Assembly (NCBI GenBank): GCA_027574665.1
Contig: CM050676.1
Coordinates: forward strand, 1,602,157-1,666,156
Direction: 5' to 3'
Length of the DNA stretch: 64,000 bases
Source: Rhynochetos jubatus
Taxonomy: Eukaryota; Chordata; Aves; Eurypygiformes; Rhynochetidae
The notes beneath the pieces are model-generated. The model was given only the letters and a program-made list of their open reading frames with translations, was not told where the DNA came from and did no database searches. Below are positions 12,601-36,000 of this stretch, one piece after another. A program made the translations under genes and the position numbers. How positions within the stretch are numbered: the stretch's first letter is position 1; every line of letters starts with the position of its first letter.

Positions 12601-15600
12601 AGAGCTTTTTATAGCACAGGCTGGTGGGACAGAACCTGGCAGCAACGCTTTCCTCTTGCATCACCTGTATCTGCCAGCTTTACCTGCCATCTATATCATA
12701 CGGTCTTCTCATGGCAGACCGACGCTCTTGTTCGTAGCGCAGCTGCTCGTGCTGGCGTCGCAGCTCTTCCCTTTCTCGCTGAATGCGATCTTGTTCTCGT
12801 CTCCTTTCGTGCTCTATGTGCATTCGTTCTCTTTCCAGTCTTTCCCTTTCCATCCGTTCTCGTTCGAGGCGCTGCCTTTCAATTTCCAGTCTCTCGCGAG
12901 CTATCTCAAGCCTCTCCCTTTCTTCTCGTTCCCGGATGGTCTGCAGGTGCTGCTGTCTCTCCCGACGCTCACGTGTGCTATTTTAACAGAAACAAGAGCT
13001 TACAGAGCTAATACTTCACCAAATAAAGGAAGTTAAAAAGCAAAAGTAGTATTTAAAATTAAACCCACGGTGACTGCAAACTTGCGTCAGCTCCTTGAAA
13101 TTATACCAGGGGCGTGTGGGGGTGGGAGGGAGGGCACAGAGGGAAGACACTCAGCATACACTGAAGTACTTGTATTTAGACTCCCACAAAACCCTCCTGG
13201 GGGCATACCATGCTATATGGTCAGGAGAACTTGGATCCAAATGCCTCCAGCTCTGAAAGCCGGAAGAGCGTGTGCGACAGTGACTCCCCTAAGGCTCAGA
13301 AATCTACCTGTGAAACTGTTTCCTCTCCAGTAAGAATGATGGAAGCCCTTCCCCTCCCATCCAATTCAACTTCCTTCAGGTCTCTAATAAGGTTTTGTAA
13401 TGTGTGGAAAGTCTTTTAACATGGAATTCAGGTCCCAGTTTTAGCAAGGCATTGGAAGGATGGCCGTGGCCACCTTTTTATCCTGAACGGCCATTGCCAC
13501 CTTTATCCTGTATTTAACATGCAACCAGAAATAAAACCCCAGCGGAAGTCATGAAATACCTGAACTGGGTTCTTAACTAAAAAGATACAGTGTGGGAACT
13601 TTGAAGGGTTGCTGGAAAATCCCCCAATCTCTCTACAGACACAAGGCATTTTAAGAAAATAAACACTCCTCTTGTTCTGTTTCAAACGCTGTGGAAGCTC
13701 TGAAGCCATGGCAAGAAAGGCAAGGTCTTAGGCTGAGAAAGACAGCTTTTCTCCTGCTCTTTTCCTGTATATTTGAGTGTGGCCAGAATTATTATAATTA
13801 AATAATTAAAATTACTGTTTTACCTCTACTATAACGCAGGCCCAACTAAGGAAAGCAGCACGCTTAAATCAACTAAACCACAAAATCCACAGAGTAGAAC
13901 AAGAACAAAACAAACTGCAATTCTTTTTTCCCCCAACACAATTTCAAGCTTAGTAGTAACAAAGTCAATCAGGGGAGTTTTGCCCAATTCAACAGGTATG
14001 TGACCCATAAACAAGTAACAAATTACAAGTGAAAAACAAATCAAATCCCTCTTTATCTGTTAGTCAGTTTAATCAAATGAAAATTACATTCATTCCAGGA
14101 AAAAAAACCCAACACAGTGACTTCACTTGCTCTTACCGGCGCTGCTCTGCCTCCCTCATTCTTCGCTGTGCTTTAATTCTGCCAAATGGCACAATGCCTT
14201 GTCTCTCTCTGCTCTCTGATTTGCGATCCTGGCTCTTAATGCTCTGTATTTCATAATGAAGTAGATAAACGTAATGGAGAACATTTATAAGAGGACAGCT
14301 ATCACACACGATTCTCTAAGCTCAGTTTCCGTCCACACGTCTCGCGTCTCAAAGCTCGGTCCCCCCATTATTCACAAAAGCTGGTGTTTAGCGTTACAGA
14401 CACACCATGTGTTAACACAGCAGCGCCTTTCATACGGCTGATACCGCCTTCAACCAAACAAACATGGGAAGGCATTTTACTAATTAAGCTCCGAATCCAC
14501 ATGACAAACTCTGACCGGACACGTTGGTACAAGCATGGGTTACATGCAGCTTGGCAGGATTCAGGCTTTGTTCCCAAGGCAAACGGACAGGGTATTTCCA
14601 AGCAGAAACATTACTTACCCTGTCTTTTGATGTAGTTGATGTTTTCACACTAATAACAGGTTCTCCTTTGGATTTATCCATTACTACTGTCCTCTCTGTT
14701 CCTTTACTTCCTAAATAGATCAGAGGTTGAGGGGAAAGAGATGGAAAAAACCAATCAAACTATATGACCTACAGCACTCACCGCTACGGCAGAACTCCTG
14801 CTCTCTAAATGTGAAAATGGGCATTTAACCCTCTCTTCAAAAATAATTCTTTCCTTACACCTATTCCAAGTGCTTCTGTGAAGGATGACACAATGTCAAA
14901 CACCTCCCCTCCCTGTTTCGTACCTTCTGGATTTCCAGCTAAGAACCCAAAATCATCCTAAATATTGGCAATTCTCTGGAAAGAAATACCTGCATTCGTT
15001 ATTTATACTTCCCCGTATCTTTTACTTTATGAAAATAAAAAGAATAGCCAGATTACCTGACTTAATAGTTTTAGGTTGATCCGATGAACCAGACTTCAGT
15101 TCATCCTTATCTTTCTTTTCCTTCTCATCTTTGTCTTCTGTCTTTTTAGGATCGTCTTTTTGGTCAGGTTTCTCATCCCTTTTAACACTGCCATGTCTAT
15201 AAATAGATATTGGTATAGATTAGACTGATACAGAGTAAAAGAAAATAAAGGAGAATGCTAGCGGCACAGTAACAAAGTAGAATTCTGATGCGCTAAGACA
15301 GACATAATTACATTTCCAAACGTTTCCTTCTCCAACTTCCAACACCATAAATACGACAGTCAGACCATGCCGTGCAGCTGGCGTGAAATCCTGGTCGTGA
15401 TTCAGGTATCTCAACTGGATGCTAAAGGACAAATTCCCACCCCCATTGCTTAATGCCCACAAAGTCCCTTATACAACATGGCAATTACGAAGCGCCAATG
15501 TGAACTATTTCGCCAGGCAACTAGGCAAAACACTTCCCAGCAAATAGAATTTAATAGCAATTATGCCTCAAGAAGACAATTACATCAAAGGACTTGGTGT

Positions 15601-18600
15601 CCTATTCATTCTTGGTGCCTTTTTCAGCTACCTTCTGTAATGCTGGAGAGAAAGAGCATAGTGCTGAAGAGGAACATGTTCTGCAAACAGGATCGTGGGT
15701 GAGGGATCTTTAACTGGCTGTGACAACAGCCTGAGAAAGCCCTTTCCAACGAGAGCAAAATTCAGGGAAGAAACAAGTGACATACTGATCAAAACTCTCC
15801 AACCGCCTTTCCTACGGATTTATGACATGAGAGCACCACAATTTTTACGAAACCCAAATACAGCTGTTGTGGTTTAACTCCAGCCAGCAACTAAGCACCA
15901 GCCAGCCGCTCGCTCACCTCTCCCCTCCTCCAGTGGAGGAGGAGAATCGGAGGAAAAGAGAAGGAAGCTTGTGGGTTAAAATAAGAACAATTTAATAATT
16001 GGAAGTAAAACAATGATACCAATAACACTAACAATACTAGTAATAGGTAACGAAAATAATGGCAAAGGAATCAAATGATACAACCATTCACCACCGGAGC
16101 CAGAGCCGGAGAGAGCAAGCGAGCCCGCCCCTGGCTCAACCCCCAACCCATACTCCGAGCATGACCTTTGATGGAGTGAAATACTCCCTTGGCCAGCCCG
16201 GGCCAGCAGGATGGACCGCATCCCCTTCCAGCTTCTTGCAGCGAAGCAGTTGGGAACGCAGGCGCAGCTCCAGAAACCAAGAGAGTCCTTGGCTTGGCAC
16301 AAACACTCCTCAGCAACAGCTAAAACCAGCAGCGTTATCGATACCCTTCCCAGCACAGGTCCGAAGCGTAGCCTCATCCTGGCTACTGGGAACTACCTCT
16401 GCCCCAGCTAAAACCAGTGCAATAGCTGAATTAAAAGTGGTGCTCGAAAATGCAACTTTCCAGTGCCTACCTTGAAACACATAACAGTTATGTGGGGCAC
16501 TGAACGCCAACAGAATTCACCTTGTGGAAGCTGGGAAAACGCATCTATTGCGCTTTTGAATGTTTGCCACAGAAATTCTTACTGAAACTTTGGTTTTCCT
16601 GACAAATCAACACAGAACAGTAAAACACCTCTGCACAGAGGATTTTCAGAACAGTACCTCTCACTGCCTGTTTCCTTCTTGGCTTCATTCTCTTTTTTTT
16701 CACTTGGCTTCTTCCCAGCAGGTTCATTTTTTGCCTGAAATTCATTTTGTATATCATCAGCCGAGAACACGGTCTCGATCGCTTGTACAATCACGGTAAT
16801 GGGATGTCTCTGAGGATCAGTACTCACTTTTTCTACAGAAATTATCTTCCCATGTAACTCTGTTTTGTGGAGGTGAGTAATGCACTTTGTCGCTTCCTCG
16901 GCTGTAGACATCGTAACGAAGCCGTAACAGCGAGCACCAGGACTGCGAGCATTGGTGACCACTTTGGCACCCACCACCTTTCCAAAAGAAAGAGCTATGA
17001 CACTCACTGGAACAAGTGCCCACCACAGCACGAAGCACGAGCTCCATTTGTACTGTTTCATTCCTGTCCCATCATCATGCAGGAAACTTCTATTTAAGAG
17101 AGATTAACACCTCCAAAAGGAGCATTGCTTGGAGCCAGTCATGCTTCTGTTGCCAACGCAATGCTGCAAAAGCTGAATCAACTGAAGGCAGCCAAAGACT
17201 GAATGTGTGCTAAAGCTCATAAAAAAAAGCAGAAGCAGGTAACTTCACATCACCGTATTTTCCACGGAGTGATCACCTAATAAAAATGTGTAAGCCAATT
17301 TCCACCGCCATGCGAATGCTAGCTGAGCTGCTAAGTCCCATCTCCCCTCGAAAAAATGTTTTCATGTCACTGCCAAGGGGCAGACCCACAACGTTATCCA
17401 CAATCTTCTTTGAGAAACAGGAAGTTTACCCAAAAAATGTAACTTAGAAAAGCCCACGGTCTTTATTTATACTCATATATTGAGTACAGCTCAGTCTGTA
17501 TTACAGAAATCAATCCTATTTCACAGGGCTGTCCTAAGGTACAGCTGAATAAAGAACACACTTCTGAGCATTTGATTTATTGCAGATAGGTCTAGTTCTG
17601 GGAAGCTTTGCTGCTGCCAATACTCCAATGGCAATAAACTGATTTTATTTCAACAACTAAACATTACCAAGGCATCTAAGTAGAGGCAAAGACTAGATTG
17701 GCTGCTACACAGTTTTTAATGACATTTAAAGTTTTGTGGTCCATCTCTATTTCAAGGCAAGGCTTGGAGCAACCTGGGCTACGGAAGGTGTCCCTGCCCA
17801 TGGCAGGGGGGTCGGAACTGGATGGGCTTTAAGGTCCCTCCCAACCCAAATCATTCCATGATTCTATGATCAATGTTCCAGGTCGCCAGATGGAAATATG
17901 AACCCCAAATGGAAGGAAATTATTGCATCTTTATTCAAGGAATGTCAAAAAGGTTTTACTGGTCTCATGACTTTCAGACAAACTCAGAGCTGCACTACAC
18001 TTAATCCCTTTTGTAGCTATTGTGAAGCCACATTTAAGTTCTGGAGTATCTTCATTAGTTAAATATTCACCAGCAGATCGCTAGCACATACGCTTTTCCT
18101 TTACTACAATCTGCTGAGAGCCATCCTTAGAGAGGCCTCAAAGGTTTGATACAAACCCTTACTGATGTCTCCAACATCAGTTTTCTACTCATCCAGCTCT
18201 TCCCATTCCCCAGCTGGCAGGGAGCTTTAGCGTGCCATGCCGCCTGTCACCAGTAACCGCAGCAGGACACCCCGCAAGCCCTACGGAAGTCTCCAATAAC
18301 CCTGTTAAATTCAGTGGTGACTGTGACCCTCCAGTGGGTGAAAATACTCGCCTGCAGCACAGGAGGCAGAAGCGTATGTAAACAGTCACTGACGGTTTCA
18401 GATAAAGGACCGTAAATGGAATTTTAGTTTGGTTCGGAAGTGAGCAACACAACAAAAAAGCAGTCATTTAGCATGTACTTGCCATCCCACAGTATTTTTG
18501 CTGATCTGAGTCCTCTCATGGTGTTTTCAGAGACAGGTCCATAAGAAGTCTTACTGAGACAGTTTTGAGTTAAAAAACCCAGACCAAACAAACCCTTACC

Positions 18601-21600
18601 TTCCCGTATTTGCTAAACAGATTCTTCAAATCCGTAGCTCTGGTAGTGGAAGCCAGTCCACTCACCCAAAAGTTTCTACCAGAACCGCTTGCAGTGCGAC
18701 CTAATTAGGAAAAACAAGCAAACAAAAGCAAAACATACCCCAAATCCTCATTATTTCAACAACCACTTCTGAATTAAAAAGGAGCAGTTCCACAAACCTC
18801 TTTTTTTAGAATCACAAATGAAACACAACACATTGAATTACAGGGGGAGGAGAATGCTTATTCCTGAAGGCAAGTAGTACCGCCAGTCCAAGAACTTTAA
18901 GACGGGACTACAAGCTTTGACGTGTGCGACAGGCATGTTGTGTCACTGCTCAAGGAAGTAACTGTGGCCCTTCAGGAGGCGCCTGGATAGATCCCAGTAA
19001 CTCTGCACTTCAGGAAAAGACTGAAGACCTGCTGGAGTTGCGGACCTGTGTTCAGTACCCGTGTATGTCTTGCCATCCTTACCGCCCTGACCCCAAAGGG
19101 ATGATGGCGGCACGCAGATTAACTGTACCTCTCAGGGAAAGACATTCAGCAGAACGAAAGCAACAACACTTCCCTCCCGTTTCTGCCTGCTCAGATTCCA
19201 CAGCTGCGGTACGAAGCCTCTGACTTCAGCTACAGGAGTCAGAATAAGCCAGCTTTCCTTATCGATGCAAGAACTACAGAACACCCATCCGATTCAGCAT
19301 CTGAACTAGAAAGATAATTTTACGAATGCCTAGGCACTTCCAAAGTCCGAGAGCCCAACGCGCAGCGATTAACGCGTTGGAGCTGAACAATTTTTCGCGT
19401 CTGCGTTTCAACGTGAAGCACTTAGGCAGGGATACCATTTCCAGTCTCCTCTGAAAAAGCTGTGCTGCCCCTTTATCCATCATGGCAGTGTTCCGTTCCA
19501 CGGGCTCCAGTGAATGGAGTGAAGCAGGTTTCGGCCCAGCTACCTGCTTTGAAATCACGTGCCTTTTTTCTTGGCAATGTACGGAATTTCTCAGAACTGC
19601 TTTCACTGAGGGGAGACATTTCCTCCAGAACCTTTCTACAATGCTGTGTAATTTGGCTGTCTTCCCACCTCTTCCCTCCTGAATAATATCCGTTACTGTC
19701 TCAAACGTGAGCTTAGCGCTGACAACACTGTTAATATTTACACAAGGTCCCTAGGGAAGCATGCAATCCCTTGTGCCAATCTCTTTAAAAAACCAGGTGG
19801 GTTTTGTGTAACGGAGACCAAGTCTACACCTGTCACCTTCCAGCCTCAAAACCTGCATGGACAAAGGTGTGTCGGACACGCGAACACACGGAAGACACAA
19901 CGTCTCGGTGTTCCAAAAAGCTGAGCCACAGGCTTTGATGCTTTTACCCCACACGCTTTCCTCTACAATGTTAAAACGGCCGCCTGCAGTTACACTGGCA
20001 GCAGCGTCCTGGAGAAAAACGAGCACTCGCTTCTTCTCTTTTACAGACCATTTTGTAGATGATTTAAGCTACGCTAATGTCCTTATTGAGTAAGTTTTGA
20101 TCAGTCTCAGCATCTCCAGTTTTTGCCCTCCCATAAAACTTTGAGGGGTGCTCCTGCAATGGTATTGCACTTAGAAGACGAACACTGGGACTATAAAATC
20201 TTCTCTAACTTGGAACTTAGAATGATACAGGCATTGAGAACCAACTCTCCACACTGAAGACATCTTTTAGACATGCGTAACTCCACTGCCAAGCTCGACA
20301 CACTTACTTGCTCATAATTTTTTGGCACTCTTAATTAAGACAGCTCTCCTACTGAATGCATGGATCTGGGAAAATGCCTCATCCTAAATAAAATCCTTTC
20401 ATACAGGTTTGGAAATAGCAATGCATGAGTCAGAACTGACTTCTATCTATTTCTATACCTTCCTCTGTCTCACCCGCGTTGGTCTGCATGCGGAGAGTGT
20501 TACATCATCACGTAGCTACCTCTCCCCAGTACCAGAAAATAATTTAAACAAAAGTTATGGAACACAGCACATCCTTTGGAGGAAGGAATTGCAGGGGCAA
20601 GGTTAGCAGCCACCCAAGTTCCTCAAGGCCGTTGTGAATGCAAAATACAAGGAGAGTTTTCTCAGTCCACAGAAAAAAAACCATGCTCAAGCTCTTGGGT
20701 AAACGACAGCATGCCCAAAACACTGCCTTAAATATGCTGAAAGAAGGGAACACCAGATTACAGACTGGACCAAGAGGTAAACAGACCCTAAAGGAGCTGA
20801 TGCTGAGGTCCAGTAGCTTGCACAGACAGGTATAGCCGTGGATCTTGAAAAAACGACAGCTGACAAGTTCAATCTGTGTTGGAAAACCCAATTAAGACCA
20901 AACAAATTCTTCCTGTCTAGTTGGCAGACAGATCTTGTTATGAGTTTCTGGCCTATTACAGGAATTGCTAGAACTTTCTCACTTCCAGTGCTGAACTACC
21001 TGCCTGCAGTATGTAAGAACAACGCTAACAGTCAGTTCTAAGTTTTCTGCACTGGTCAGGTAGGAGAGAATAGAGGTGGGGTGAGCTGCAAAGACTCAGC
21101 AGCCTGACGTATGAAAAGGAGTAAGTATGATGAAAGAAGGAGCAGGGACCTGACGCTGTTGATCAAGGTATTTTCATCTTGCTTATGATGCGTATTTGCA
21201 CTGTAAATAGGATCTGCATGGTCAAAGATTTAGTAACGTCAACCTAATTTGAAGACAACATTAAGTCGCGGGTTTCCGTGGGATTTAAATACTAGATTCC
21301 AAATTATTTCAGCAAAACAGAAGCTGGTATGAAGAATCACAAGCGTATAGTAAAGCAAACCCAATCGCGTAAGGCTCTCGACTCACTACCAGCTGTTGGT
21401 TAAGCATCTTCAGTGCCATGAAGGACATATTTGCCACGTATTAACGTCTACCTTGGAAGATCAAGATACAAACAAAAGGCTGCGACACAGGTATCCTTAG
21501 AAAAATGCATAAAAGCAAAATAATTTTTAAAAAAATATTCAAAATATAGCCAGAAAGATATTTAACAACTGCACAGATTCCAATGTTTTTCTGCCAAAAT

Positions 21601-24600
21601 ACCCCATCCAATACAAAACCAGTCTCTCCCAGCAATCAAAGTTCTGGTTTTGAAAAGAAACATACCTTTCTCATCCTTTGGGATTATCTTTATATCTCTG
21701 TCCTCCTCGACAGGGCTAAAGACAAAACACCACATTATTCGAGTCAGAAAGACAAGTGGTTAACTATAAATTACGAAAAATGCTAAAATTAAATACCTAC
21801 CAGACAGTATGTTGCGAATGAAAACACACCTTTGTATACTTGATTTAAGAAATCTGACAAGAAATAATGAAGTCAGATTCTTAAACAGACTTATACTAGG
21901 AAGACATATAAAATAAGAGTAATTTAAGACAAACAACCTTTGAAGGTTGAGGAAGGAAAGAAATCAAACCCTCGGTGTTTAAACAAAAAATAAATCTGCA
22001 CATGGAGAAATAAAACAGATTCTTTAGGAATAGGCTACAATTTCACCAGTCTCGGTGGCCAATTGAAGGAAACAGCTTATTCGCATCACTTAACGACCAA
22101 TGAAAAAGATAGCATCTGGTCTATAACGGAGAAAAAACAAACCTCTTTTTCAGATCACCGCCCTCACTGGTTGAGGACTCTTTAGTAGCAGGGGGTTCCT
22201 CAGAATTAGCTTTGTCTTCTGTTTTCTTGCCATCTTCTTTGCTATCTTTGCCTTCGGGACCTGCGCCTTTTTCCGCTGTTTCCCCACTAGAGGCTTCCAG
22301 GCCTTGGGAGCGTTTGCTACTCTGATCGCTTAGGGTCTCTACTCCTACACATTCACAGTCCGGTTTCTCTTCCTCTAGTGTCTGTTCACTTGTCTCCCCT
22401 TTTGCTACAACTAAACGCTTTGCTTCCTTCCTTGCCATAGCTTGGGCTGATCTGCTGTCCAAATCTAAAGCATCTTCCTCCAACTGAGCGGCAGCAAGAG
22501 CGTCCTCTTCCTCCGCTAGCCTCTTGCCTGGCACCACGTTACTTCCTTCCTGTGCATGCGGCCGCTCCGCTTCAGCAGTTTCTTCGTTAAGTAGTTCAGA
22601 TTTACAAGTTTCCCCCAAAATGTCGAGTATTTTCTCATTTTCTACGGATTTAACAGGAATAGAATGGCACAAGATTTAATCACCAGGGAAATACAGCAAT
22701 CACAAATGTGGAACTGGCATGGCTGCCACACTAACACCAAGAGAACTTCTAAGCTACACAGAGATTGGAAAACCCTAGTGTACACAGTGTTAAAAGTACT
22801 ACGCTAACTGCTCTCTGACCAACCACCACATCACCACTGAAATGTTAACAGGGAAGAAAAATGCCCCCACAGACTTAACAAACACCTTCTGGCTGATCCT
22901 TGATATTCTTCATGAAACCATTCAGCTCTGTTTCTTCTCTAGTTAGCTTCCAGAGTCCCAGACGCTTAACTGATCAAGGCACTGAGGGTTCAATTTTTAT
23001 ATTTCTGTGAAATTCTCTTAGCAGACAGTCCAACATGAGAACTGGGCATCTTCTGATGGTGCATGAGTGTGTTTGCAGTCCAGAAAGGGAAAAGTATCTG
23101 TATGAAATTTCCATGAAGAAACTCTCTTCTTTCTTCTGTATCCAGTAACTAATCTTTACACTTTAATGCCCTACAGTGACTTTTGACTGCTTTCACTGCT
23201 CTCTACTTAGTAACAGAGTTAAGGTGTGTGCGATATCACAAGATCTGTTTACAAGCAGAATCTTTAGCTTTTAAACTGTGATTAACTTCTCTAAATCCAT
23301 TTATGTAGTTTAACAGGTTTTTAAACCATTTCATTTCACTGGAAATATTTCAAAGATGACAAGCATCACTTCACAGATCTGGGGATATGATTGGGTTTCC
23401 AATCTCTATGACCCTGCATGATCTGGATTGTCCATCATAAAAATAATGCAACTTATGTTTGGTTTGCTTGGGTTTTTAATAGCTAATGGTTTAAAAAGTA
23501 TTAGTTGAAAAGACAGGAATATGTTTGTGGGGTGGTTTTTTTTAACAGTACCTGGCTCCAAGTGCAGCTTCTCCATTTTCTGTTGGGGAAAAAAAGCACA
23601 GAATGAGGATTTTACAAACTGTATTTTCTAACACAGCAGAATAGCAACCCCTGCCCAATCCCCAGATTGAAAACTACACAAATTAACTTCCTACATTTAG
23701 CACTTTTTTTTTTCACCGTTCACCAGAACTGAGTATTTTATACAGGTAATTCCTATGGCACATTAAAGCCAAATCAAAATATCTGCCACAATCGCGTTCC
23801 CATATCTAACTTGGAACGTTACACAGACGAACAGAGTACCTTTATGTACCTCATCAAGTGCCGAGTGAAAAACAAACCCCGCTACTACTCGATATAATCA
23901 GCAGGAAAGAAGGAATCAACAGTACAAAACCATCTTTCTTTGCCACAAGAGTGGCAAAAGTCTTGATAGCAGACTGAAAAGTAGGGAACAACGCAGGGCG
24001 TTCTCATCTGACAGACTGTACTCTGAGCAAGGTCACGTATGCCCTGGGCTCTGCTACCATTTCCTATTATGGTCATGTGTCCTTTTTTTGTAGCACGAGC
24101 ACGGTGTGAATACTGACAATAACAATCCAAAATACAGCAACATTTTCAATTTACCTTTATTTCAATTAAATCAGAGGAAGAGGCATCTAAATTGTTTTCA
24201 ATTTCATCATAATCTTCCTAAAAGAGCAAAAAAGGAATTACAGCATTTGTTACAAAAGGTAACTTTAGCTTACGGTGAAATACTTGTGTATTCCATTTCC
24301 CCTAGCAATAACAGCAGAAGTATCTTCCAGCATTACAGATCTCAGTTGCTACTTCACATTGTGAGCAAGAATGAGGAGCAACATATAAACATTCTTGACG
24401 ATTAAACATCTTTCTCCAGTTGCCTTTTGTTTTAATTTCAACATGACATTGTCTACTACAAAGTTACTCTTGTTTAGAGCGAAAATTTCACATTTCTGTG
24501 GTTACTGTACGTAACATCTTTTTCCATTTTCCCTCTTTTTTACTTCTTTATTTTCTAACTGAAAAAAGAAGTTGGAAATGCAGCCGAATTAGGTTTCCAC

Positions 24601-27600
24601 TCTTCCAAAACCAAAACATGTCTCCAGAACCTTCCTTCCTTAGGGACTGGTGGTTAAGACTCAACCAAAGCTCATCAGTTGTACGATGCACAACAGCTCT
24701 AACTTCAGAACACCAGAAAATTGCCTTTTGGGTTAACTGGATGTTGTCACAAAGACTCTGTTTTCAGAAGGTAAATGATAAAAAGCTGACAGAGACACCA
24801 CAGGCCTAAAATAAAAAAAATGCATAAGGAGGCAAGGAAGGACAATACGTTTGGTTTTGGGAGTGAACAGCCTAAAATACAGAAACCCACAAGGATCCAA
24901 GGCAGCACTGTATCCTTGTACTCAGCACTGGCGAGGCTGCCACCTCGAATCCTGGGGTCACTTTTGGGCCCCTCACTGCAAGAAGGACACTGAGGGGCTG
25001 GAGTGTGTCCAGAGAAGGGAACGGAGCTGGGGAGGGGTCTGGAGCACAATTCCTGTGGGAAGCAGCTGAGGGAGCTGGGGGCGTTCTGCCTGGAGAAGAG
25101 GAGGCTCAGGGGAGACCTGATCGCTCCCTACAACCCCCTGAAAGGAGGGGGAGAGAGGGGGGGCATGGTCTCTTCTCCCAAGTGACAGCCTCAAGTTGCA
25201 CCAGGGGAGGTTTAGATTGGATATTAGGGAAAATTCCTTCCTGGAAAGGGCTGTCAGGCATTGGAACAGGCTTCCCAGGAAGGTGGGGGGTCACCATCCT
25301 GGGAGGGATTGAAGAGACGTGTGGATAAGGTGCTCAGGGACATGGGTTAGTGGTGGGCTGGGCAGTGTTGGGTTAACGGTTGGACTTGATCTCAAAAGTG
25401 TTTTCCAACCAAACAGATTCTACGATTCTGTAACACTGGGGAGTGAACATAACATACAGGTTACCCTGTTCATTCAGTAGCAGGAGACTGTGCTGTCTGT
25501 AAAAGACACTGCAAATCTGCTCCCAAAGTTAAGTCAAAAGCCCGGCAACCTCAGAACAGGGCAATGCACAATCTGCAAAGGGTTTCTTGTTTCCCTGATC
25601 TCCATGAGAAAACTGTACAACATGAATTCTTCAAACCAGAGCATTATTTCTGCAGAAAGTATTTCCAAATTATCTGAAAATTGAAAACTCAGACATATGG
25701 GGAGACAGAGAAATTTCTAGATGGATGAGTATACACATATGTACTCTCTTAGACACATACAGATGGGAAGGGGGAACACCAGAACTGATACACTGTTTTC
25801 AATTCCAGGCTTCTTTCATCGCAAGCAAAGAAACTTTCATGTTACTGCAAGGTAAAGAAGGCTGCGACCCATCTACTGTGAACATTTCAAGCCTCTGACA
25901 GGTCTAAAAGCATTTATCACTCAAGGAGTAGGACATGAAAGCTGTTAATGTGAAACAGAATCCATATTGTACTCATGTCTTATGTTCTGTTATACTGAAA
26001 CAACTTGTTCACAGAATCACGGAATGTTTGGGTTGGAAGGGACCTTAAAGACCATCCAGTTCCAACCCCCCTGCCGTGGGCAGGGACACCTTCCATAGCC
26101 CAGGTTGCTCCCAGCCTCATCCAGCCTGGCCTTGGGCACTGCCAGGGATGGGGCATCCACAGCTTCTCTGGGAACCTGTCCCAGTGCCCCCCACCTTCAC
26201 ATGCCCATGTACTTACTAAATACTTTCTGAAAATGTACAAGCACTGCTACTCACCTCAATTTCCGTTAGCTGATCGGGAGGTTCTTTCATTTCTGCTTCA
26301 ACATTGTCTTTATTATCAGACAGAGAATCAAGAATATTATCAGGACTATAGTCTTCTCCACAGTCTACAGCACTGCCGTTATCGATCTCAGCTTCATCTA
26401 ACACGCTAATATCCATCATGTCAATATCCTGCAAGGTCTCCAGACTTGCTTCGATATCCTCCTACAGAAAGGAAAAGGGTAGATGTGTGTTTGTTGTGGG
26501 TTAAATGATCCGTATTCTCAGTAACAGCAATCATGACTTGTTACCTGCCCATCTCTAGAGTTTTCTTCTAGTCCATTGTCTTCAACACCTTCTTCTTCTG
26601 GTTTTCTTCCTAAACACAGCACCACTGACGTGAGATACAGCACTAAATTTCGTAACGCATCCACTCTTTGCTGAATTATCTATTCAACACTGAGTTTGTT
26701 TCAACAAATACTCATTAAGATCCTGATTCACAGGTCCAGGTCTGTCTGGATATAACAGGGGACGATTTGCCATTCAATAAGAACAAACGGCAGGAGCATG
26801 AACTAGCAGTAGCACAGCTACGTTTTTCAACAGCTACACTCCTCTCGTTCCAAAGTATCTAAAAAGACAACACTCTAGGAAGGTGTACGTTTAAAAGAAA
26901 TACACTGTCACACAAAACCTTTCTTACCATTTAAATAATTAAACTGATTTAGAATTAGTCTTCTCTTTTAAGATCCTGGACACAGTGACCACATTTAGGC
27001 ACGTCCGTCACCAGCAAACGTGTATCGCTGTTCAAAAACACCCGCTCTTTGTGTATTTCTACCCAGTTTTCTTAAAGGAAGCAGCTTAAAAGTAAGTTTC
27101 AGACAGCAGCTTTTAAGAACCGGCTATGAGCAACTCAAATAAACCCCACGTAAATGGCCCACACGATATTTAATGTTCTTGAAGCCAAATATACTTCAAT
27201 CACTAACGAGCTATTTCAGAACGGTTTATTTTCCAACCAACAGTTATAAAATGACACTAACCAAAGCTATACGTAGTTGTTATTTGTGCAACAATGGTTC
27301 TAATTATTCCCACTGTAATTTTTTGCATCTAAAAAGGTATCACAACGGTGATGGAGGTTCAGGAAAACGTATGTAGTCGTGGCAAGGAAATTAGTACCTG
27401 GGGTGTTGTGTAGCCCCCTTAATTTACATTCCCAGAGCTTTCCACACGAGCCTTCGCTGCAGCTGCTGCTCTGGGCCTGACACAATTCTGCACTCAGTCA
27501 CAAGAGGAGAAACACCTACAACTAACAGTCTCATCTACAGGTTTCAAGACTTGCAAACCTAAGTACGGGTAGGTGTCACGTTATTGTTTGAACATGTTAC

Positions 27601-29483
27601 CGCTCACTAATGCAACAGAGTTTCAGTTTTCCATAGGAAAGCAAAAAGAAAAAGCACTATTTTTTTAAACTAAACTAATGAAACACAATAAATCAACATC
27701 ACATGCTGAGTTCTAGCTACACGGAAACAAAAGAACCGTATTTGTCTAGACTCTGTACCTTTGCTAGTTCTTTTTGGCGTTCTCTTGTTGGTCAGTTCTG
27801 AGGCCACAGGAATTTCATCAGGATCTCCTCCTTCATCCTCAATAGCCTGTTGGAGAAAGCAGCACGATATCTATTGTCTTGTCTGCTGGTGTGCATTTGT
27901 ACCGGTTTTCGACGGAACAGTTAAATTTCTTCACAGTAGCTTGTATGGGGCTACGCTTTGCATTTTGCTGACAAGTGCCGATAACACAGGATGTTTTGGT
28001 TATTGCTGAGCAGTCCTTGCACAGTGTCAAGGCCTTTTCTGCTTCTCGCACTGCCCCACCAGCGAGGAGGCTGGGGGTGCACAATCTGGGAGGGAACACA
28101 GCTGGCAATGCTGACCCAACGGGATATTCTGGACCATATGACATCGTGCTCAGCAGTACAACTGGTGGGGCTGCCATTGCTTCAGGACTGGCTCCGTAGC
28201 GGTTGCTGACAGTGAACAATTGTTTTCTTTCACATCACTTGGGCGCGTTGGTTTTTTCCTCCTGTTAGGTTTCTTTTCCCCTTCCATTTTTTAAAATTAT
28301 TAAACCGCCTTTATCTCAACCCACAAGTTTCCTCTCACCTTTAGCTTCCCAGTTCTCCCCCACATCCACCTGCGGAGGGGGGCAAGGTGCTTAGCTGCCT
28401 ACCAGGGTTATATGACTACAGCATTTTTAAGGATTTCTCAGGCGGAAACATTAGCGCATCACCCCAGTTCAGGGTATCCAGCCAGGCAGCCGTGTCAGCC
28501 GTTAGAAACACGGAATAGTGAGGTGGTGTAACACAACTCCGCAGCCAAATCAAGCTACCACTGAGGAGTAAAGTTCCCCTCGGGTGTAAACAAGGCGCCC
28601 TACTCAGCCGTAGCTGTATAAACCCGACAGTGACCACTACAGGAACCCAGGCGAATCTGACTGTTTTTCTCAGCGTGCAGGCCTAGTAGGACCCATAAAA
28701 AAGGTGAGGATCGACTACACCGTTCTGGCCTTACTCCCTATAAACACGTTTCGCAGAGGCGGAGAGAGATGGGTGAAGCGCGAAGAGAGGAAGCAAAAGG
28801 AGAAAGACGGGAAAGGGGAGCGCGCGTATATGCCGGGAGAACGGGAGAGGAAGCAGGCGAAGGCCGCGCGTACGTCAGGCGCAGGGAACGAGGGAAAGAC
28901 CGGGGCCATCGCGGAGTAAAGCCGGAGCAGCACCCCGAGCGAAGGGCTGAGGCGCGGGCGGCGGCGGGGGCCTCCGCCGGGGGCCTCCGCCGGGGGTGTG
29001 GGAGCGGTGGCAAGAAACAGTGGTTACTGGCGGTCCCCGCGAGGGCAACGGCTCCACGGAAAGGGCACGCTGATGCGCTGCAGAACACCCCGCAGCCCCC
29101 CGGCGCCGGGAAGCAGCGGAGGGACGCGGTGGCGCGGGGCTGCCGGGGCTCCCCTCAGGCCTCCCCCCGCCAGCGCGGCCGCTCGGTCCGCCGGACTAGA
29201 CCGCAGCGCGCATGCGCCGATCGCCCTCGGACCGGGGACAAAGGACCCGGATGACACCTCCCCCGGCCCTTCTCCCGCCGGGTTCGCGCCTCACCTTCCG
29301 CAGCCGCTCCATCAGCACGCTCTTGTTGCCGCTGCTGTCTAGGTTACGGCGTCTGAGCTCGGCTCGCAGATCTATGACTCGCAGCTCGCTCAGCCGTCGC
29401 GTTTCAGGTTCTGAGCCGAGAGCCGCGGCCCCACCAAGGGATGTGAAGTCCCCCAGCCCGGCCGCTGACTGACTCTCCGCCAT
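9631..29483 (-). CDS. SAFB: SAFB, scaffold attachment factor B1 (complete, 21 coding exons)
   Basis: Nuclear protein that binds matrix-attachment DNA and RNA and acts as a transcription co-repressor and splicing regulator. Exons in transcript order: 29483-29295, 27846-27759, 26609-26545, 26461-26255, 24217-24155, 23579-23552, 22641-22143, 21715-21666, 18700-18600, 16977-16828, 16734-16658, 15196-15057, 14710-14619, 14243-14137, 12977-12684, 12408-12271, 11790-11748, 11110-10989, 10286-10174, 10047-9996, 9760-9631. They sum to 2,748 nt (915 aa), the human SAFB length. SAP domain at residues about 27-63 ([23 protein letters not shown]). RRM about 404-480 with NFWVSGL (RNP2) and ARCYGFVTM (RNP1). 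Arg/Glu-rich helix about 619-717. Gly/Arg-rich tail ends [26 protein letters not shown] and [10 protein letters not shown] are SAFB-like rather than SAFB2-like, and the gene lies next to MICOS13 as in human. Exon 7 lies in the conversion tract. The start ATG is the first in frame after the GC-rich leader. Confidence 0.93.
11190..11420 (-). mobile_element. CR1 LINE fragment in SAFB intron 17
   Basis: The stretch reads TTAGGATTAGAAGGGACCTC, then CTGAGATCATCCAGTCCAACCCC, then a CR1 body in reverse orientation (CTGGAGACTCCTCAGCCTCC, CTGCCCAGTTCTCCAGCC). It lies between SAFB exons 17 and 18 and has the same sense as SAFB transcription. Ends are approximate. Confidence 0.75.
15865..16421 (+). mobile_element. 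Solo ERV LTR in SAFB intron 11, antisense to SAFB
   Basis: It starts TGTTGTGGTTTAACTCCAGCC and ends CCCCAGCTAAAACCAGTGCA, giving TG...CA over about 557 bases. It shares the CCTCCTCCAGTGGAGGAGGA block and AT-rich middle with the LTR at 7503-8284. The 5-base flanks ACAGC and ATAGC match at four of five positions, consistent with an ageing target-site duplication. No gag/pol/env sequence is present. The LTR promoter would point against SAFB transcription. Confidence 0.8.
17756..17872 (+). mobile_element. CR1 LINE 3'-end fragment in SAFB intron 9
   Basis: A short 5'-truncated CR1 tail: GGAGCAACCTGGGCTACGGAAGGTGTCCCTGCCC, then GGTCCCTCCCAACCC, ending ATTCCATGATTCTATGA. The terminal ATTCTATGA repeat is the CR1 3' signature and fixes the + orientation, antisense to SAFB. 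Confidence 0.85.
21911..22986 (-). repeat. SAFB arm of a near-identical inverted repeat (probable gene-conversion tract)
   Basis: The reverse complement of this segment equals 35894-36970 across SAFB exon 7 (499 nt), about 230 bases of intron 7 and about 345 bases of intron 6. The only difference I found by eye is one base in an A/T homopolymer (six against seven, near 21985-21990). At 21910 and at 22987 the match falls abruptly to a clearly diverged but still homologous intron alignment; upstream intron homology continues to about 23440. Confidence 0.93.
24895..25433 (+). mobile_element. CR1 LINE fragment (about 540 bp) in SAFB intron 4
   Basis: Typical CR1 3' region in + orientation: GGAGTGTGTCCAGAGAAGGGAACGGAGCTGG, GAGCTGGGGGCGTTCTGCCTGGAGAAGAGGAGGCTCAGGGGAGACC, then GGTTGGACTTGATCTC and a tail ending GATTCTACGATTCTGTAA. 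It is antisense to SAFB. Open frames over it are not genes. Confidence 0.9.
26011..26198 (-). mobile_element. CR1 LINE 3'-end fragment, reverse, in SAFB intron 4
   Basis: CACAGAATCACGGAATG-type start, then TTGGAAGGGACCTTAAAGACCATCCAGTTCCAACCCCCCTGCC and GGGCAGGGACACCTTCCATAGCCCAGG. This is the reverse complement of a CR1 3' end. It sits about 0.6 kb from the + strand CR1 in the same intron and ends about 57 bases before the SAFB exon 4 donor. Confidence 0.9.
28966..28996. repeat. G-rich tandem repeat, 13-bp unit
   Basis: Two full copies of GGGGGCCTCCGCC followed by GGGGG. It lies in the CpG-rich part of SAFB intron 1, about 300 bases from the exon 1 donor. Confidence 0.8.
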
Positions 29484-30024
29484 CAAGACCCCTTCGATGT
29501 TCCGCCTCAGGCCCGAACGCACGGGAGAATGCGGCACGATCAAGCAGCTAACCTTGCGATCCCAGCACAAAATGGTGGGGAGGCCAAGACGCGGCGAGGG
29601 GAGGGGGGGGGGGAGGCCCGCTACGCGCAGGCTCGGAGCGAGGGGCGATGGCGAGCCGAAGGGAGGAGGAAGGCGGTGCCTGGAAGGAAACTTCGAATGA
29701 CAAGCCGTGCGCAGGCGCGGACGGCGCCGCCCGCGCGCAGGAACGGCTCGAGGGCTTCGGCGCGTGCGTCCGGCGGGCGAACCAACCTGCGCTTGCGCAC
29801 TCCCGCCGCGAGGTTGCGAACGGCGCTAGTGCGCGTGCGTACGTGCCGCGGAGCGGGGACGTTCTTGTGCGCCTGCGCGCAGCCCGTGCGGGACCGCCGT
29901 TCCCTCTCTCCCCGCCCCCTTCGGTGCGTCTGGGTTCTGCCACCATTTTGTGCTGCAGCCGCGGCTCCTCGCCGTTGTTTTCATCCCGCCTTGCTCCGCC
30001 CGCGCGAGTTGAAACAACGGCCCC
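29484..30024. promoter_or_regulatory. Bidirectional SAFB/SAFB2 promoter (541 bp between start codons)
   Basis: This is the whole interval between the two start codons, so it holds both 5' UTRs and the core promoter. No TATA box is evident. A 16-base element CAGCACAAAATGGTGG is present at 29563-29578 and as its reverse complement at 29940-29955; its AAAATGG core resembles a YY1 site. Between them lie NRF1-like GC palindromes: TGCGCAGGCGC (29708-29718), CTGCGCTTGCGCA (about 29788-29800) and TGCGCCTGCGC (29868-29878). An exact GCGCATGCGC occurs outside, at 29208-29217. The symmetry suggests the promoter was duplicated with the genes. Binding is inferred from motif only. Confidence 0.85.
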
Positions 30025-33000
30025 ATGGCGGAGAGTCAGGCAGCGGCCGGCCAGGGGGAGTCTGCGTCGCTGGGTGGGTCTGGAGCCTCCGGTTCGGAGT
30101 GTGAAAACCGGCGGCGGCTGAGCGAGCTGCGCGTGATAGACCTGCGGGCTGAACTCAAGCGCCGCAGCTTGGACAGCGGTGGGAACAAGAGCGTCCTCAT
30201 GGAGCGGCTCAGGAAGGTGAGCGGGGCTGCCGGAGGGGCTGCCGGAGAGGGAGGGGGTAGCGCGACCCTCGCCCGCCGAGCTGCCGAGGAAAATGGCGCC
30301 AAACGGCTGCGGGGAGCAGGGGGCGTGCGGCGGGCTCGGGGGGGGAGGGTGTTCCGTGGGGCCCGCCGAGCCCGCTGGGAGCCTGACCCCGTAACTGGCC
30401 GTCCCGGACTCTGGTGGAGGGGTACGTGGAGGAGTGCGGCGGCTCCGTGTGCAGTGAGCCCCTCTCCGGCTCCCCAGGCCCGTGCCGCGCAGCGTGTCTG
30501 CCGTGGCACCCGGCCCGGGGATTTCTGGCCTCAGGCATCGCTGGGCTTTCCGCCGTGCATTGAGCTCCTGGATTTACAGTTCTGTACGCTATCAGGCTTT
30601 TTGCTGCGTAGTGATTTAGTTTTTGTTGGCTTTCTAGCTGGTAGCCTGTGCTCGGTATGCTCATCAGGGCGTTTGGTATGTGAGTAGCCTGCGGACCGCC
30701 CTCGTTGCACTGACGCTTGCTGCCTCCTTGGGTCGGGGTTCTTACTCTGCCCCAGCCCCGGGTACCTACCCTGTTGCGAACGCTGTAGAACTGACCTTTT
30801 TTTTTTTTTGTCTATAGGTTACGCTGCTGGCTGCTTTCCAGAAGCTTCATGCTAACATGTTACTCTTTCCTGCGTGCTTGTTGCTTTGATCTGGTAGTCA
30901 CTGGTTTGCTCTATTCAAGTTGCTGTCTAATTCAAAGCACTAGATTCTTGTTTTGGTGGTTTTTCTGCCTCTGGTGTCCAGCTCTTAAACTCCACAGAAA
31001 TGGAATTTTTACGTCTGTCTTGATATCTTTCTTTATGTTTTCCCCTTAATAGGCTATTGAGGAGGAAGGGGGAAATCCTGATGAAATTCCAGTGATTTCA
31101 GAAAATATCATGAAGAAAACTCCAAAAAGAAGCAGCAAAGGTACAGGGCAGTGAGAGAGGATCTCCACCCCACCCCCCTTGGCTTTCCTAGCAGCTTTTA
31201 CTCGTGACATTGAACCTGGCTGATCTTATTTTTTTTCTGCATTCTGCTTTTCCCTTTGGAAAAGTGCTTGGTTTAGTTTTGGCACCATGGCTGGATGTTC
31301 TGCAATCCCAAAGCTATAGCTGGCATGAGTTGCCTGAGCAGGATTGAGTAAAACTGGCTCTCTGGGAGAAACTAAGCACAGTTGAATCTTCTGTTCCTTG
31401 GTTCTGGCCTTCCGTGCCACACGTTACCAGTCCTTTTCCCCACATTTGTGTTCAGGTTTCTAGGGATGGGTGGGTAGGTGTTAAACGGGGCATTTATTCA
31501 GAACTTTGTGTAATTTGATAAGGCGGGAATTGGTGCACTCGAAGGATCTTGTTTTGTTCTCAGAATTCTCTGGAATTTGTAGCAGGAATTACGAAGTGAT
31601 GCTGAAGCAGTGTTTTTAAAATAGGTATTTTTGGTTTTACGTGACAGTACCTTTACTTTTGAGGAATACAGGGTGGTGTTGGGGTTTTTTTTTAGGTAGA
31701 AATGCAAAGTTTCTAGCAAATTCAAAATAACATCTGTAGTGTGTTATGCTTCAGAGCCAATAGCGGTGTTGTTTTTCTCCCAGGAAGACTAATTTTTAAT
31801 CAATATGTGAAATTGGTTGTGTTTTTAAGGCGTTCTCTATGTGTTGTTTTTCTAACGGTGACAGTCACACGTAATCCTTATTTTAAAAAAATTGCTATTC
31901 TAAAATTAGCACAGTTTGATCCTGTTTTGTAATGGTGAATAACTAGTTGAGGTGAAGGGGTTTAATTTATTAATTTCGACTTCCACAAGATGTACATTTG
32001 TGAGATGAAGCGCGAATGTTTTGCCAACTAATTTATTTGACTGGGATTTTTCTCTTGACTCTGAATTTGGAGCCATGCAAAGTAAAATGCACAATCTTAA
32101 CTGGAAAGAGAACAAATGTCACAACTGTGGGTGAAAGCAGAGGGATCTTTGGTGATCATGTTTGTTTTCAAGTGTCAGAAAACACCTGACCTGTTTGTTG
32201 TGGCACTTTTAGTGTTCGGCTGGAAATAGTTGAGATGTTCCTTTTAGCCCTAAAACCACTTTTCCTTTTTTATTGTAATGTGCTTGTAGTTTTTGAGGAA
32301 AGTAACATTCAGGAAAGATGAAGCAACTGCTTAGCCGAGCGAGGAGTTGCTGTTTGGCGCTGAAGCTCACGTGCTCTTTCCAGTAATGCCAGCTCTGATA
32401 CTGTGTCCAGCTGGCGAACGGAGCGCTGCAGTAATGCTCGCACCTAGGGGGGTTCGTTGTTTGGCTTTGGGCTTTTTGTTGGTTTTCTTCTAGTGAATGT
32501 CTGTAAGGCAGTGAAAGGTTGAGGTGTTCAGCTACTGCAGTCTCCGCTGAGCCAGTTGTTCAGGGAGCGTGTGCTTCTTGAGCACGTGACGGGCCTCGGA
32601 CTGCAGCGTGTTTGTCAGTTTACTGAGCTGGGATGGTGTGTAAACACTCAGTTGTGCAAAGTAAGGAAAAAAGCAGATAACTGAGCTGAATGGAATACTG
32701 ACTGATGGAAAAAATCTTGAAGGATACGTGTTTTTAACTTCTTCTCATTCTAACAATCATAATGTTGCTAGGACGTAGACCAGATGAAGAGGGAGTAGAA
32801 GATAATGGCCTGGAAGAGGATCTGGGAGACGGACAGGTATGTGAGGCTGTGCTGAAGTGAAGTAGTGATAGCATTGCTTTCAAGTTACAATGGCTATTAT
32901 ATATACTTTTTTTCTTTTTACAGGAGGATATTGAAGCAAGTTTGGATAACTTGCAGGATATTGACATGATGGATATTAGTGTGTTAGATGAAGCTGAAAT

Positions 33001-36000
33001 AGATAATGGCAATGCGGTAGATTGCGGAGAGGATTACAGTGCTGATAATATTCTTGACTCACTGTCTGATAGTAAAGAAAATGCTGATGCAGAAGTGAAA
33101 GAACTCCCAGATCAGCCTACAGAATATGCTGTAGGTAACTTGGAGGCATCCCCACAGTTTTCAGAAATTAAAGAAGAATCAAGAGAAATACCAATAGTGA
33201 TGGTATGCATCTCTTATGTGTGTGGACTCGCATTATTTTTTCCTTTTTATTTTTTTTGTTAAATAGCAAACCAGTAGATAAAGACGATTTGAAACAATTT
33301 GGGGTTCTATCAGTTTTCATGGTCATTGCTTTTTCTTTTACGTATCTGTGGAAATAGCATTCTTGATTTTAAAATGCTTAGATGTTGTTTGTACACACGA
33401 CTGTTCAAATTTATAGTCATCCAGAAAGCGTTTGTTGTTAATCGTGCTTTGAACTCTCTGCTTCGCCTTGTGTTTACATTCCCATTTTCGTATCTTTCCT
33501 TTGTTTAGGAGGACATGTGAGGCATAGAAATGCTGTCGCCTTATTTCCTTCACTTCAGCTGAATAGCAACACTCTGAGAACTACATTCTAGATGATTAAC
33601 TGTTAAGATAGGGTCTCACAGCTACTCAGCTGTTGGAAGTGGTTTTGTTGGCTTTCTGGGCTTGGCTGTCACACTGCTTATGTGACATAGTCCATCAGGG
33701 CTAGCAGATACATTATTCTTTTTTTTTTTTTTTCCCCGAAGTCAAGTGTTTCTCTCCCAAAATGTACAACAAAGCATTTGAGGAAAGTTATTTCTGCCCC
33801 ATCTAATGGAGAAGCGCAGCCCTGGGTTGTGTGTGCATGTTGTGGCATCAGTCTGCACTACAGGGTTCTAAAGTCGGGTGGTTTCTCCCTGAAATCTGAA
33901 ACTTGCAGAAATATGCTTAACCCCTATCCCCAGGTATATCCCTGCCCCACACAAGTCAAGTGGAAAGACCCAGAAAGTATTTTTTTCAGGGTCTTACACA
34001 GGATGGACTATAGTACAGTCCTCTATAGTACAGACTATACTGCCAGGGTCCAGGTCAGCTCCTGTTGCCTTATCAGTAAGGAAAACAGTTATCGAGTCTC
34101 ATAGACTTTTTGGCTTTATGTTGTTGCTGTAACTAAGAGAAAAAGAGTAAGAGAAAGTGCTGTTTGGAATCCCCATCCTTAAGTTTTTCTGTGAGCTGAC
34201 CAGCGTATTTGAGAGGTAATGACAAAGCTTATTCAGTCGGTGGGATCGGGAAGAGGCGTGGTGGTTGTTGGTCAGTTTTCACCCGTGTGGGTTGTTTTGG
34301 ACACTAGATGTATTTGCTTGATAGCTGTTGTCAGTGGAAATAGTCTTTGATTTGTTATTCAGGTTTCATTCACAAACCCATTCTGGTACAGATAGCAAAA
34401 TGTCTTCTGTTTGCTTTTTAAAGGTAGAGGTTGAAGATGTTGGAAACAGTTTAGATGCTTCTTCGTCTGATCTAACCATAATAAAGGTAAATGGTAACCA
34501 ATTTTTCTTTATAAACAAAAAGGCGTAATACGTGCTGTGTAAAGTGTATGCTGAAACAGTGTGTGCACGGGGAGTGGTACGCAGTGGGTACGTTCTTGCT
34601 CTGCAGAGAACTAGTGCCTTTCTAATTCAGTCCCATGGACGGAGAGACATACACACATCACGTACACAAGGCCTTGTATCTGTTGAGTTTGGGTGGTAGA
34701 TTGGATTATTTTTATCTGTTGTATAAACTAACTCAGTGCCTTACGTTGTGTTTGACTTCTCCCATGTTGACAACAAAGCTGGAACTGATTTGTTCCTGAA
34801 ATACTGGCTTTGTTTCCAGTTCATTCGTAGCTGCAGGTGGAGCTGGGGTTTTTATGGCTCCTGTTTTCAGAAAGTGCACTCTAGGGAAGGGTTACACAAA
34901 GATAAGCTTTGGTCTATGCTGCTTACACTTGTCAATTCATTACCCGTGAGAATGCGTACACTGTGTTCAGTAGGTGTCTGAATTTGAGAAATACTGAAGT
35001 TCTGCAAATTTTGTAGAACTTGAAGACATTAAAAAGTAATGTTAAACCTTCCTGGGAGACATGTATTTAAAATGCAAAGCTCTCAAAGCTGAAATAGGCA
35101 AAATTACAGTAACTCTTTCCCTAAACTCTCTCCTGTCTTGGAGTGGGGGAGTTACCATTCAGAATAACATCATGACTTCTTATAAAATAGTGATACTTCT
35201 CCTTTTTTTTCTTTTTCACTGCAGGAACTTGAAGAATTACCTTTGGAGCCAGGTACTGTTGTTTTTGGTTTTGTGGTTTTGTATTTTCTTCCTTTTTTTT
35301 TTTGTTTAAAATAAATAATAAAAAAAAAAACTTAAAAAAACCAACCCCAAGCCGAAAAAGTCCTGGGCGTTGAAACCGTTTCATTCTTCATTTAATTCTT
35401 TTTGTGTCCCTGGTTCTTTTTTTTTTCTCTTTAAATGCATTACTGTAGTGTACGTGATTATGGTGGACGATCCAGATCATGCAGGGTCATAGAGATTGGA
35501 AACCCAGTCATATCACCAGATCTGTGAATAACTGCTATTTGGAAACATGGATTTCATGTGATGAAATGGTTCCACAGAACTGTACCCTACAGTGGAGTTA
35601 AGGAATGAGCCTTAAAGGTGTAAAGGTTCTGAAAACAGATCTTGTGATATCACACTGTACTATAGTTCTGTGAGTATAAATACAGGAGCGTAGGTGATGC
35701 AGCGCTTTGGTACCGAACAGAAAGTAAAGAGCGACTGGACTTCAGAAGAAGGAATACACTGTCATCACTGGAATTGTCTGCAAATGTACTCGCTTTCTGG
35801 ACTGCAAACACACCTGTGCACTGTCGGAAGATGCCCAGTTCTCATGTTGGACTGTCTGCTAAGAGAATTTCACAAGGATTTGGAAAATGAACTCTCAGTG
35901 CCTTGATCAGTTAAGCGTCTGGGACTCTGGAAGCTAACTAGAGAAGAAACAGAGCTGAATGGTTTCATGAAGAATATCAAGGATCAGCCAGAAGGTGTTT

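Follow-up and report, generated by a model that had tools for sequence, protein, structure and literature searches.

Concerted evolution of a single exon in the inverted SAFB paralogues of birds, alligator, and turtles

Introduction

How can two neighbouring genes diverge over most of their length and yet share one long exon letter for letter? This question is raised by a 64,000-nucleotide stretch of the kagu genome (Rhynochetos jubatus; assembly GCA_027574665.1, contig CM050676.1, positions 1,602,157 to 1,666,156), referred to here as the window, in which two genes of the SAFB type lie head to head. An original prediction, made from the letters of the window, held that a near-identical inverted tract around exon 7 of both genes was the trace of a recent gene conversion. 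On the basis of the kagu DNA and of proteins from other species, we conclude, with a probability of about 0.9, that exon 7 and its immediate intron flanks form a long-lived gene-conversion island in an old pair of inverted paralogues. The kagu tract is the latest round of the concerted evolution of this exon, and the finding is thus larger than first claimed, i.e., single-exon concerted evolution of the SAFB paralogues in birds, alligator, and turtles.

Results

The two genes and the homogenised tract are placed in the window as follows (spliced models for the genes, exact-match comparison for the tract arms, and gene models for the exons).

9631..29483, reverse strand: left SAFB-type gene (L), 21 coding exons, 915 amino acids, start codon at 29483
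30025..46225, forward strand: right SAFB-type gene (R), 21 coding exons, 934 amino acids
21911..22986, reverse strand: tract, left arm
35894..36970, forward strand: tract, right arm
22143..22641, reverse strand: exon 7 of L, 499 nt
36239..36737, forward strand: exon 7 of R, 499 nt, identical to exon 7 of L

The reading frame is intact in both models, and the introns of L are of the GT/AG type. As had been described, the left arm equals the reverse complement of the right arm except for one A in a homopolymer, the right arm being one A longer. An exact run of 1,002 bp (L 21985-22986, R 35894-36895) and another of 80 bp (L 21911-21990, R 36891-36970) meet across this homopolymer, and there is no other difference. 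Exon 7 lies wholly within the tract; the rest of the left arm, 577 bp, is intron (intron 6, 345 bp; intron 7, 232 bp), close to the 575 bases first estimated. The arms are inverted and approximately 13 kb apart at exon 7. A search of the kagu genome found these two copies and no third, such counts being lower bounds.

The other exons of the pair differ, as the original prediction also stated. None of 109 synonymous sites in exon 7 differs between kagu L and R, compared with 289 of 472 in the other exons (synonymous divergence, 1.27). The contrast at fourfold sites (0/72 versus 116/217; Fisher P = 6e-20) excludes chance as the source of the exon 7 identity. Outside the tract, the longest exact collinear-strand run in the gene pair is 48 bp. 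Both edges had been called sharp. In 50-bp windows, the edge at 21911 is indeed sharp (identity rising from 0.50-0.60 to 0.98), but that at 22986 is not clean: identity is 0.84 in the window 22960-23009, and a new 48-bp exact run (23006-23053) starts 19 bp farther on.

To place the kagu pair among its relatives, 179 database proteins, nearly all from birds, turtles, and crocodilians, were compared segment by segment with kagu L and R (before exon 7 [N], exon 7, and after exon 7 [C]). The segments flanking exon 7 assigned 176 of these proteins to a type (63 L and 113 R; the other three were from ruminants), whereas exon 7 does not sort. We left out the three untyped ruminant proteins and 14 further rows with fewer than 120 aligned exon 7 residues. 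Length filters then gave 130 species-and-type rows including kagu, from which 21 species with both types (18 birds, alligator, and two turtles) were used in trees and counts.

Within species, L and R are 97.5 to 100% identical over the aligned residues of exon 7 in 21/21 species and 45/45 isoform pairs, with no more than six gap positions. The pooled L/R identity of the other exons is 37 to 91%, exon 8 standing at 90%. Exon 7 is thus homogenised in each of the 21 species, while the other exons, with the partial exception of exon 8, keep separate L and R histories. Real differences between the copies of exon 7 do occur (159/163 identical residues in both Trachemys and Calidris, and 164/166 in Pelodiscus). 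Constraint is not what makes the copies alike, because conservation of exon 7 between species does not exceed that of its flanks; the identities for N, exon 7, and C are 91, 89, and 94% between kagu L and chicken L and 95, 86, and 95% between kagu L and pigeon P0040.

The changes that set species apart tell the same segments apart. Species-unique residues, counted without the first six exon 7 columns, are present in both copies versus one copy at 57:6 in exon 7 and at 8:390 in the flanks (Fisher P = 7e-57). At least one such private exon 7 residue is shared by both copies in 14 of the 21 species and at least two in 10. Barring parallel change, this implies at least 10 to 14 separate conversions on terminal branches alone. 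Columns in which L and R have no residue in common number 0 of 170 in exon 7 and 85 of 814 in the flanks. L and R were listed with a longest contig of the same size in 12 of the 21 species, which suggests that the two genes are linked there.

Separate trees, a check that the original prediction had proposed for the tract and for exons 8-21, were built for exon 7 and for its flanks from the protein rows of the 21 species. In the flank tree (774 columns), a branch with a support of 100 separates all 21 rows of L from all 21 of R. In the exon 7 tree (166 columns), rows group by species, the owls being too alike to resolve. Holding L together on exon 7 costs 428 log-likelihood units (approximately unbiased test, P = 8.8e-9), 11 sets of identical rows being exempt from the constraint. 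Trees made separately from N and C with 20 sauropsid rows also keep L and R apart (support, 92 to 94 for N and 99 to 100 for C). Among 118 further proteins, five entered a tree.

The L and R clades each hold birds, alligator, and turtles, and five mammalian SAFB proteins fall outside both under midpoint rooting. The L/R split of the flanks therefore predates the turtle-archosaur split, which occurred approximately 255 million years ago. Since exon 7 follows the species and its flanks follow the paralogue, copying between the arms has apparently recurred from before that split. The pair thus shows a duplication older than the species compared, as the rest of the gene attests, and an exon 7 in which paralogues within species are more alike than orthologues between species. 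That purifying selection is not the cause is seen at the synonymous sites of kagu, and in kagu only.

The same sites date the last round. The lack of any synonymous difference in exon 7 indicates a fairly recent last conversion in kagu, with a 95% upper bound of approximately 7 million years from 109 sites at an assumed rate of 1.9e-9 per site and year. Tighter upper bounds of 0.7 to 1.8 million years, calculated from intron and synonymous sites together with general bird rates, were withdrawn because part of the intron is conserved.

Four further stretches bear on the limits of the converted zone.

21661..21740, reverse strand: island of identity, exon 8 (21666-21715) plus 25 nt of intron 7; right copy 37138-37217
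23006..23053, reverse strand: island in intron 6, 48 bp exact, noncoding; right copy 35827-35874
23370..23440 (approximate), reverse strand: island in intron 6, 71 bp at 94%, noncoding; right copy 35458-35528
22645..22800, reverse strand: conserved stretch of intron 6 inside the tract, 156 bp, from the kagu-broadbill comparison; right copy 36080-36235

Exon 7 retains no old L and R states from which donor and recipient could be read, and the direction of copying was therefore sought in exon 8, using a crude one-residue marker (12 rows unparsed). In L of turtles and crocodilians, the marker is arginine (EDRDTK); in the R gene of 7/8 turtles and of alligator, it is alanine (EDADTK and the like), Carettochelys having threonine. 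Among tinamous, L could be parsed in four species and has alanine in each, which indicates that R was copied into L. Conversely, the R gene under most neognath names has arginine, which points to copying of L into R; lysine is present instead in nine oscines and in three grouse and pheasants. Apus and tinamous have changes in exon 8 that are common to both copies, as do potoos when two species are taken together. Read from this marker, exon 8 has been converted in both directions and sits on the margin of the zone of conversion. In kagu, the exon 8 island contains two differences, both of which change the amino acid; thus, the last conversion of exon 8 is older than that of exon 7.

The three islands are outside the tract and are split from it by diverged DNA. 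The two in intron 6 are probably conserved noncoding elements, this being a likelier cause than the alternative that they are remnants of old conversions. A repeat origin was rejected for the 23370-23440 island and for a part of intron 6, each of which was found in two places only in the genome. The 156-bp stretch within the tract is conserved between species as well: in the L protein of a broadbill (Calyptomena), the annotation of which runs into the intron, 50 of 52 residues match the translated kagu stretch, and an R protein of a crow holds 16 of 16 residues of it. The intron is consequently no neutral yardstick, and its identity between the arms alone proves little. The support that the original prediction drew from intron identity is accordingly weaker than it was taken to be.

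No RNA family reached its gathering threshold in the window (only subthreshold matches lie near the tract), and two intron parts gave no signal of RNA structure (z, +2.08 and -0.67). A candidate for a further short exon, located within the tract with its end (CCAGAAG|gtgttt) near 22886, was dropped because the 28-nt exon 6 has better splice sites and the right phase; the peptide words of the candidate occur in none of 297 database proteins.

Discussion

The original prediction named misassembly as its main alternative. If one arm had been placed twice or polishing had equalised the arms, the sole remaining difference could well be a homopolymer length, a typical residual sequencing error, and the broken exon 7 of some database proteins is what near-identical copies cause in draft assemblies. 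As a general explanation, however, an artefact fails: exon 7 is alike in all 21 species, and Trachemys, Calidris, and Pelodiscus have copies that differ. For kagu itself, the assembly (1.33 Gb in 148 contigs) suggests long reads, and both arms sit in unique flanks on one contig. We therefore see only a slim chance of an artefact. A conversion restricted to the kagu lineage would explain the kagu tract, and the original prediction was correct about the kind of event and about its being fairly recent. That it was a single event is contradicted by the likeness of exon 7 in every species with both proteins, back to turtles and alligator, and by the private residues present in both copies in 14 of them (10 if two residues are required); we give this reading practically no credence.

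Purifying selection on an ultraconserved block could hold the copies alike without any conversion. In its favour are the conserved 156-bp stretch of intron 6, where only 2 of 52 translated codons differ between kagu and broadbill, and the two intron islands outside the tract, which are 94 to 100% alike. For exon 7 it is contradicted, because in the L comparisons the rate of change of this exon between species is no lower than that of its flanks, its changes occur in both copies of a species, and silent sites in kagu are identical too. Such selection is likely for some of the intron stretches and, as an account of exon 7, even less credible than an artefact. A comparably low standing is given to repeated inversions by crossing over, which would mix the copies. 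The geometry is permissive, with inverted and near-identical arms, and both genes would survive with swapped 5' halves. An odd number of inversions would nevertheless yield proteins in which N is of the L type and C of the R type. None was found in 176 typed nonmammalian proteins, although the typing rule needed only a small difference in N, so that turtle cases are less secure for this test, and L and R also stay distinct in the trees built from N and from C alone.

Several points weigh against a long-lived conversion island. The DNA evidence comes from kagu, and in the other species the case is built on proteins. The islands cut off by diverged DNA are a poor fit to simple contiguous tracts. 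Raised G+C content at third codon positions (GC3) often accompanies long-running conversion, whereas GC3 in exon 7 is 68/166 (0.41), compared with 333/750 in the other exons of L and 339/769 in those of R (0.44 each; P = 0.44 and 0.49). Raised G+C content as a signature of conversion was looked for and not found. Five proteins (P0074, P0172, and P0175-P0177) have an unrecognisable or broken exon 7, probably through gaps in annotation or assembly; in two of these, the sequence comes from intron adjoining the exon, as assembly gaps would produce. Furthermore, the homology-length and no-crossover steps of the mechanism below are ones that we infer. Finally, selection for an identical protein in both copies may be at work. 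Such selection has been proposed for other gene pairs (Carson and Scherer 2009, PMC2720389), and human SAFB1 and SAFB2 can heterodimerise (PMC4582101).

Under the conversion reading, breaks in one arm would be repaired by copying the other arm, usually with no crossover, an outcome expected of synthesis-dependent strand annealing. Exon 7, at 499 nt by far the longest coding exon (the next longest has 294 nt) and with conserved intron beside it, would be the only site at which homology of sufficient length for repair persists. This homology would be renewed with every conversion, and the island might thereby sustain itself. Exon 8, on the margin, would be included only occasionally, with copying in either direction. 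If the arms crossed over, the interval of 13 kb would be inverted and the genes would trade their 5' halves. In a more specific version, to which we give less than even odds, selection on the noncoding elements beside the long exon keeps the inverted arms homologous enough for copying. The exon would then have been copied for approximately 250 million years, with no inversion fixed, as a passenger, whether or not the protein needs identity.

The exon 7 segment is acidic, of low complexity, and devoid of aromatic residues; judging by this composition, it is probably disordered, without a named domain. Two lysines reported as SUMO sites of human SAFB1, K231 and K294 (PMC4402547), are both inside exon 7 when counted on the gorilla protein P0201, which implies that, in mammals at least, the segment being copied is functionally important.

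Mammalian pairs in concerted evolution for more than 100 million years have been described (BMP8A/B, DDX19A/B, and TUBG1/2; PMC2720389). Like these, the SAFB pair is a mosaic of homogenised and diverging parts in many lineages, probably as two linked copies, and BMP8A/B is also inverted. The three mammalian pairs homogenise several exons; the SAFB pair homogenises one, with exon 8 at times. They also show higher GC3 in two of three cases and a lower dN/dS in the homogenised part, whereas in SAFB exon 7 GC3 is not raised and conservation between species does not exceed that of the flanks. While the three are mammalian, the SAFB case reaches turtles and crocodilians. Likewise, in TLR1/TLR6 and CCR2/CCR5, a part is homogenised and the rest diverges (according to PMC2720389); those parts are receptor domains, for which selection on shared binding has been proposed, whereas the SAFB part is an acidic stretch with no named domain. 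The human paralogues SAFB and SAFB2 are 74% similar, with up to 98% in some functional domains (PMC4582101 and PMC4402547). Among the 120 database rows listed, no protein is named SAFB2.

The word SAFB is absent from the main text of PMC2720389. We found no literature on gene conversion or concerted evolution of SAFB/SAFB2, an absence that carries little weight as most subscription papers were outside the coverage; a match that recurred concerns ape acrocentric chromosomes (PMC12767296).

Why conversion persists between two genes for more than 100 million years has been called an open question (PMC2720389). The SAFB case involves essentially one exon, is older than the turtle-archosaur split, and is available in many sequenced genomes, so that conversions could be dated, donor and recipient found, and three causes separated: homology length, noncoding constraint, and protein selection. 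In practice, exon 7 (and exon 8) is best left out of SAFB phylogenies and paralogue naming. Exon 7 may also end up broken or merged in draft assemblies.

Other features of the locus

The remaining features of the pair in the window are as follows.

29484..30024, no strand: intergenic segment of 541 bp between the two start codons, G+C content of 0.70, CpG observed/expected ratio of 1.15
23552..23579, reverse strand: exon 6 of L, 28 nt, outside the tract
35225..35252, forward strand: exon 6 of R

Both genes belong to the SAFB family: full-length relatives are 63 to 97% identical and SAFB-like along their whole length, and most of those listed carry precomputed PF02037, PF13893, and PF00076 domains (SAP domain and RRM; these are domains of the relatives). 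Relatives of L are named scaffold attachment factor B1-like in database listings, and the R protein is the kagu protein P0121 (100% in all three segments compared). Database sources name L-type and R-type proteins inconsistently as SAFB or SAFB2. The human SAFB/SAFB2 pair has the same arrangement (PMC4582101), and by analogy with it and by its composition, the intergenic segment is probably a shared bidirectional promoter. The first coding exons (29290-29483 and 30025-30221), which include the coding sequence of the SAP box, form the innermost inverted pair and are 78% alike.

In two ruminants, Ovis (P0001) and Muntiacus (P0008), one annotated protein holds two SAFB copies. Between the copies, exon 7 is identical at 169/169 residues, compared with 135/147 and 132/147 for the part preceding exon 7 and, in either species, 167/175 for the part directly following it; for Ovis, the P values are 8e-5 and 0.007. 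This is only suggestive of a separate case of conversion, as the second copy may be recent.

Annotated isoforms of Cariama (P0052) and Heliangelus (P0054) lack exons 7 and 8 together (21666-22641; 549 nt, in frame). If these isoforms are real, the two exons are an optional cassette, and the conserved intron would gain a role in splicing; we mention this as a lead only. R-type proteins often run beyond the exon 4 donor modelled here, and 52 of 68 intron matches are near 33100; R probably has an alternative or longer form of exon 4 here (33135-33187). An inverted pair of 118 bp within L (17760-17877 and 26002-26117; 91%), which is not an exon pair, is probably a dispersed repeat.

In a structure database searched with the RRM, none of the matches listed (60 of 130) was named SAFB. 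SAFB-like RRM exons were also found on another kagu contig (G000:C15:2792278-2794138; matches L007 and L010), in a gene that is presumably SLTM. The L007 match spans one TAG, probably where it extends into an intron. These RRM exons are only 66 to 67% alike, which indicates that this unlinked relative is not homogenised there.
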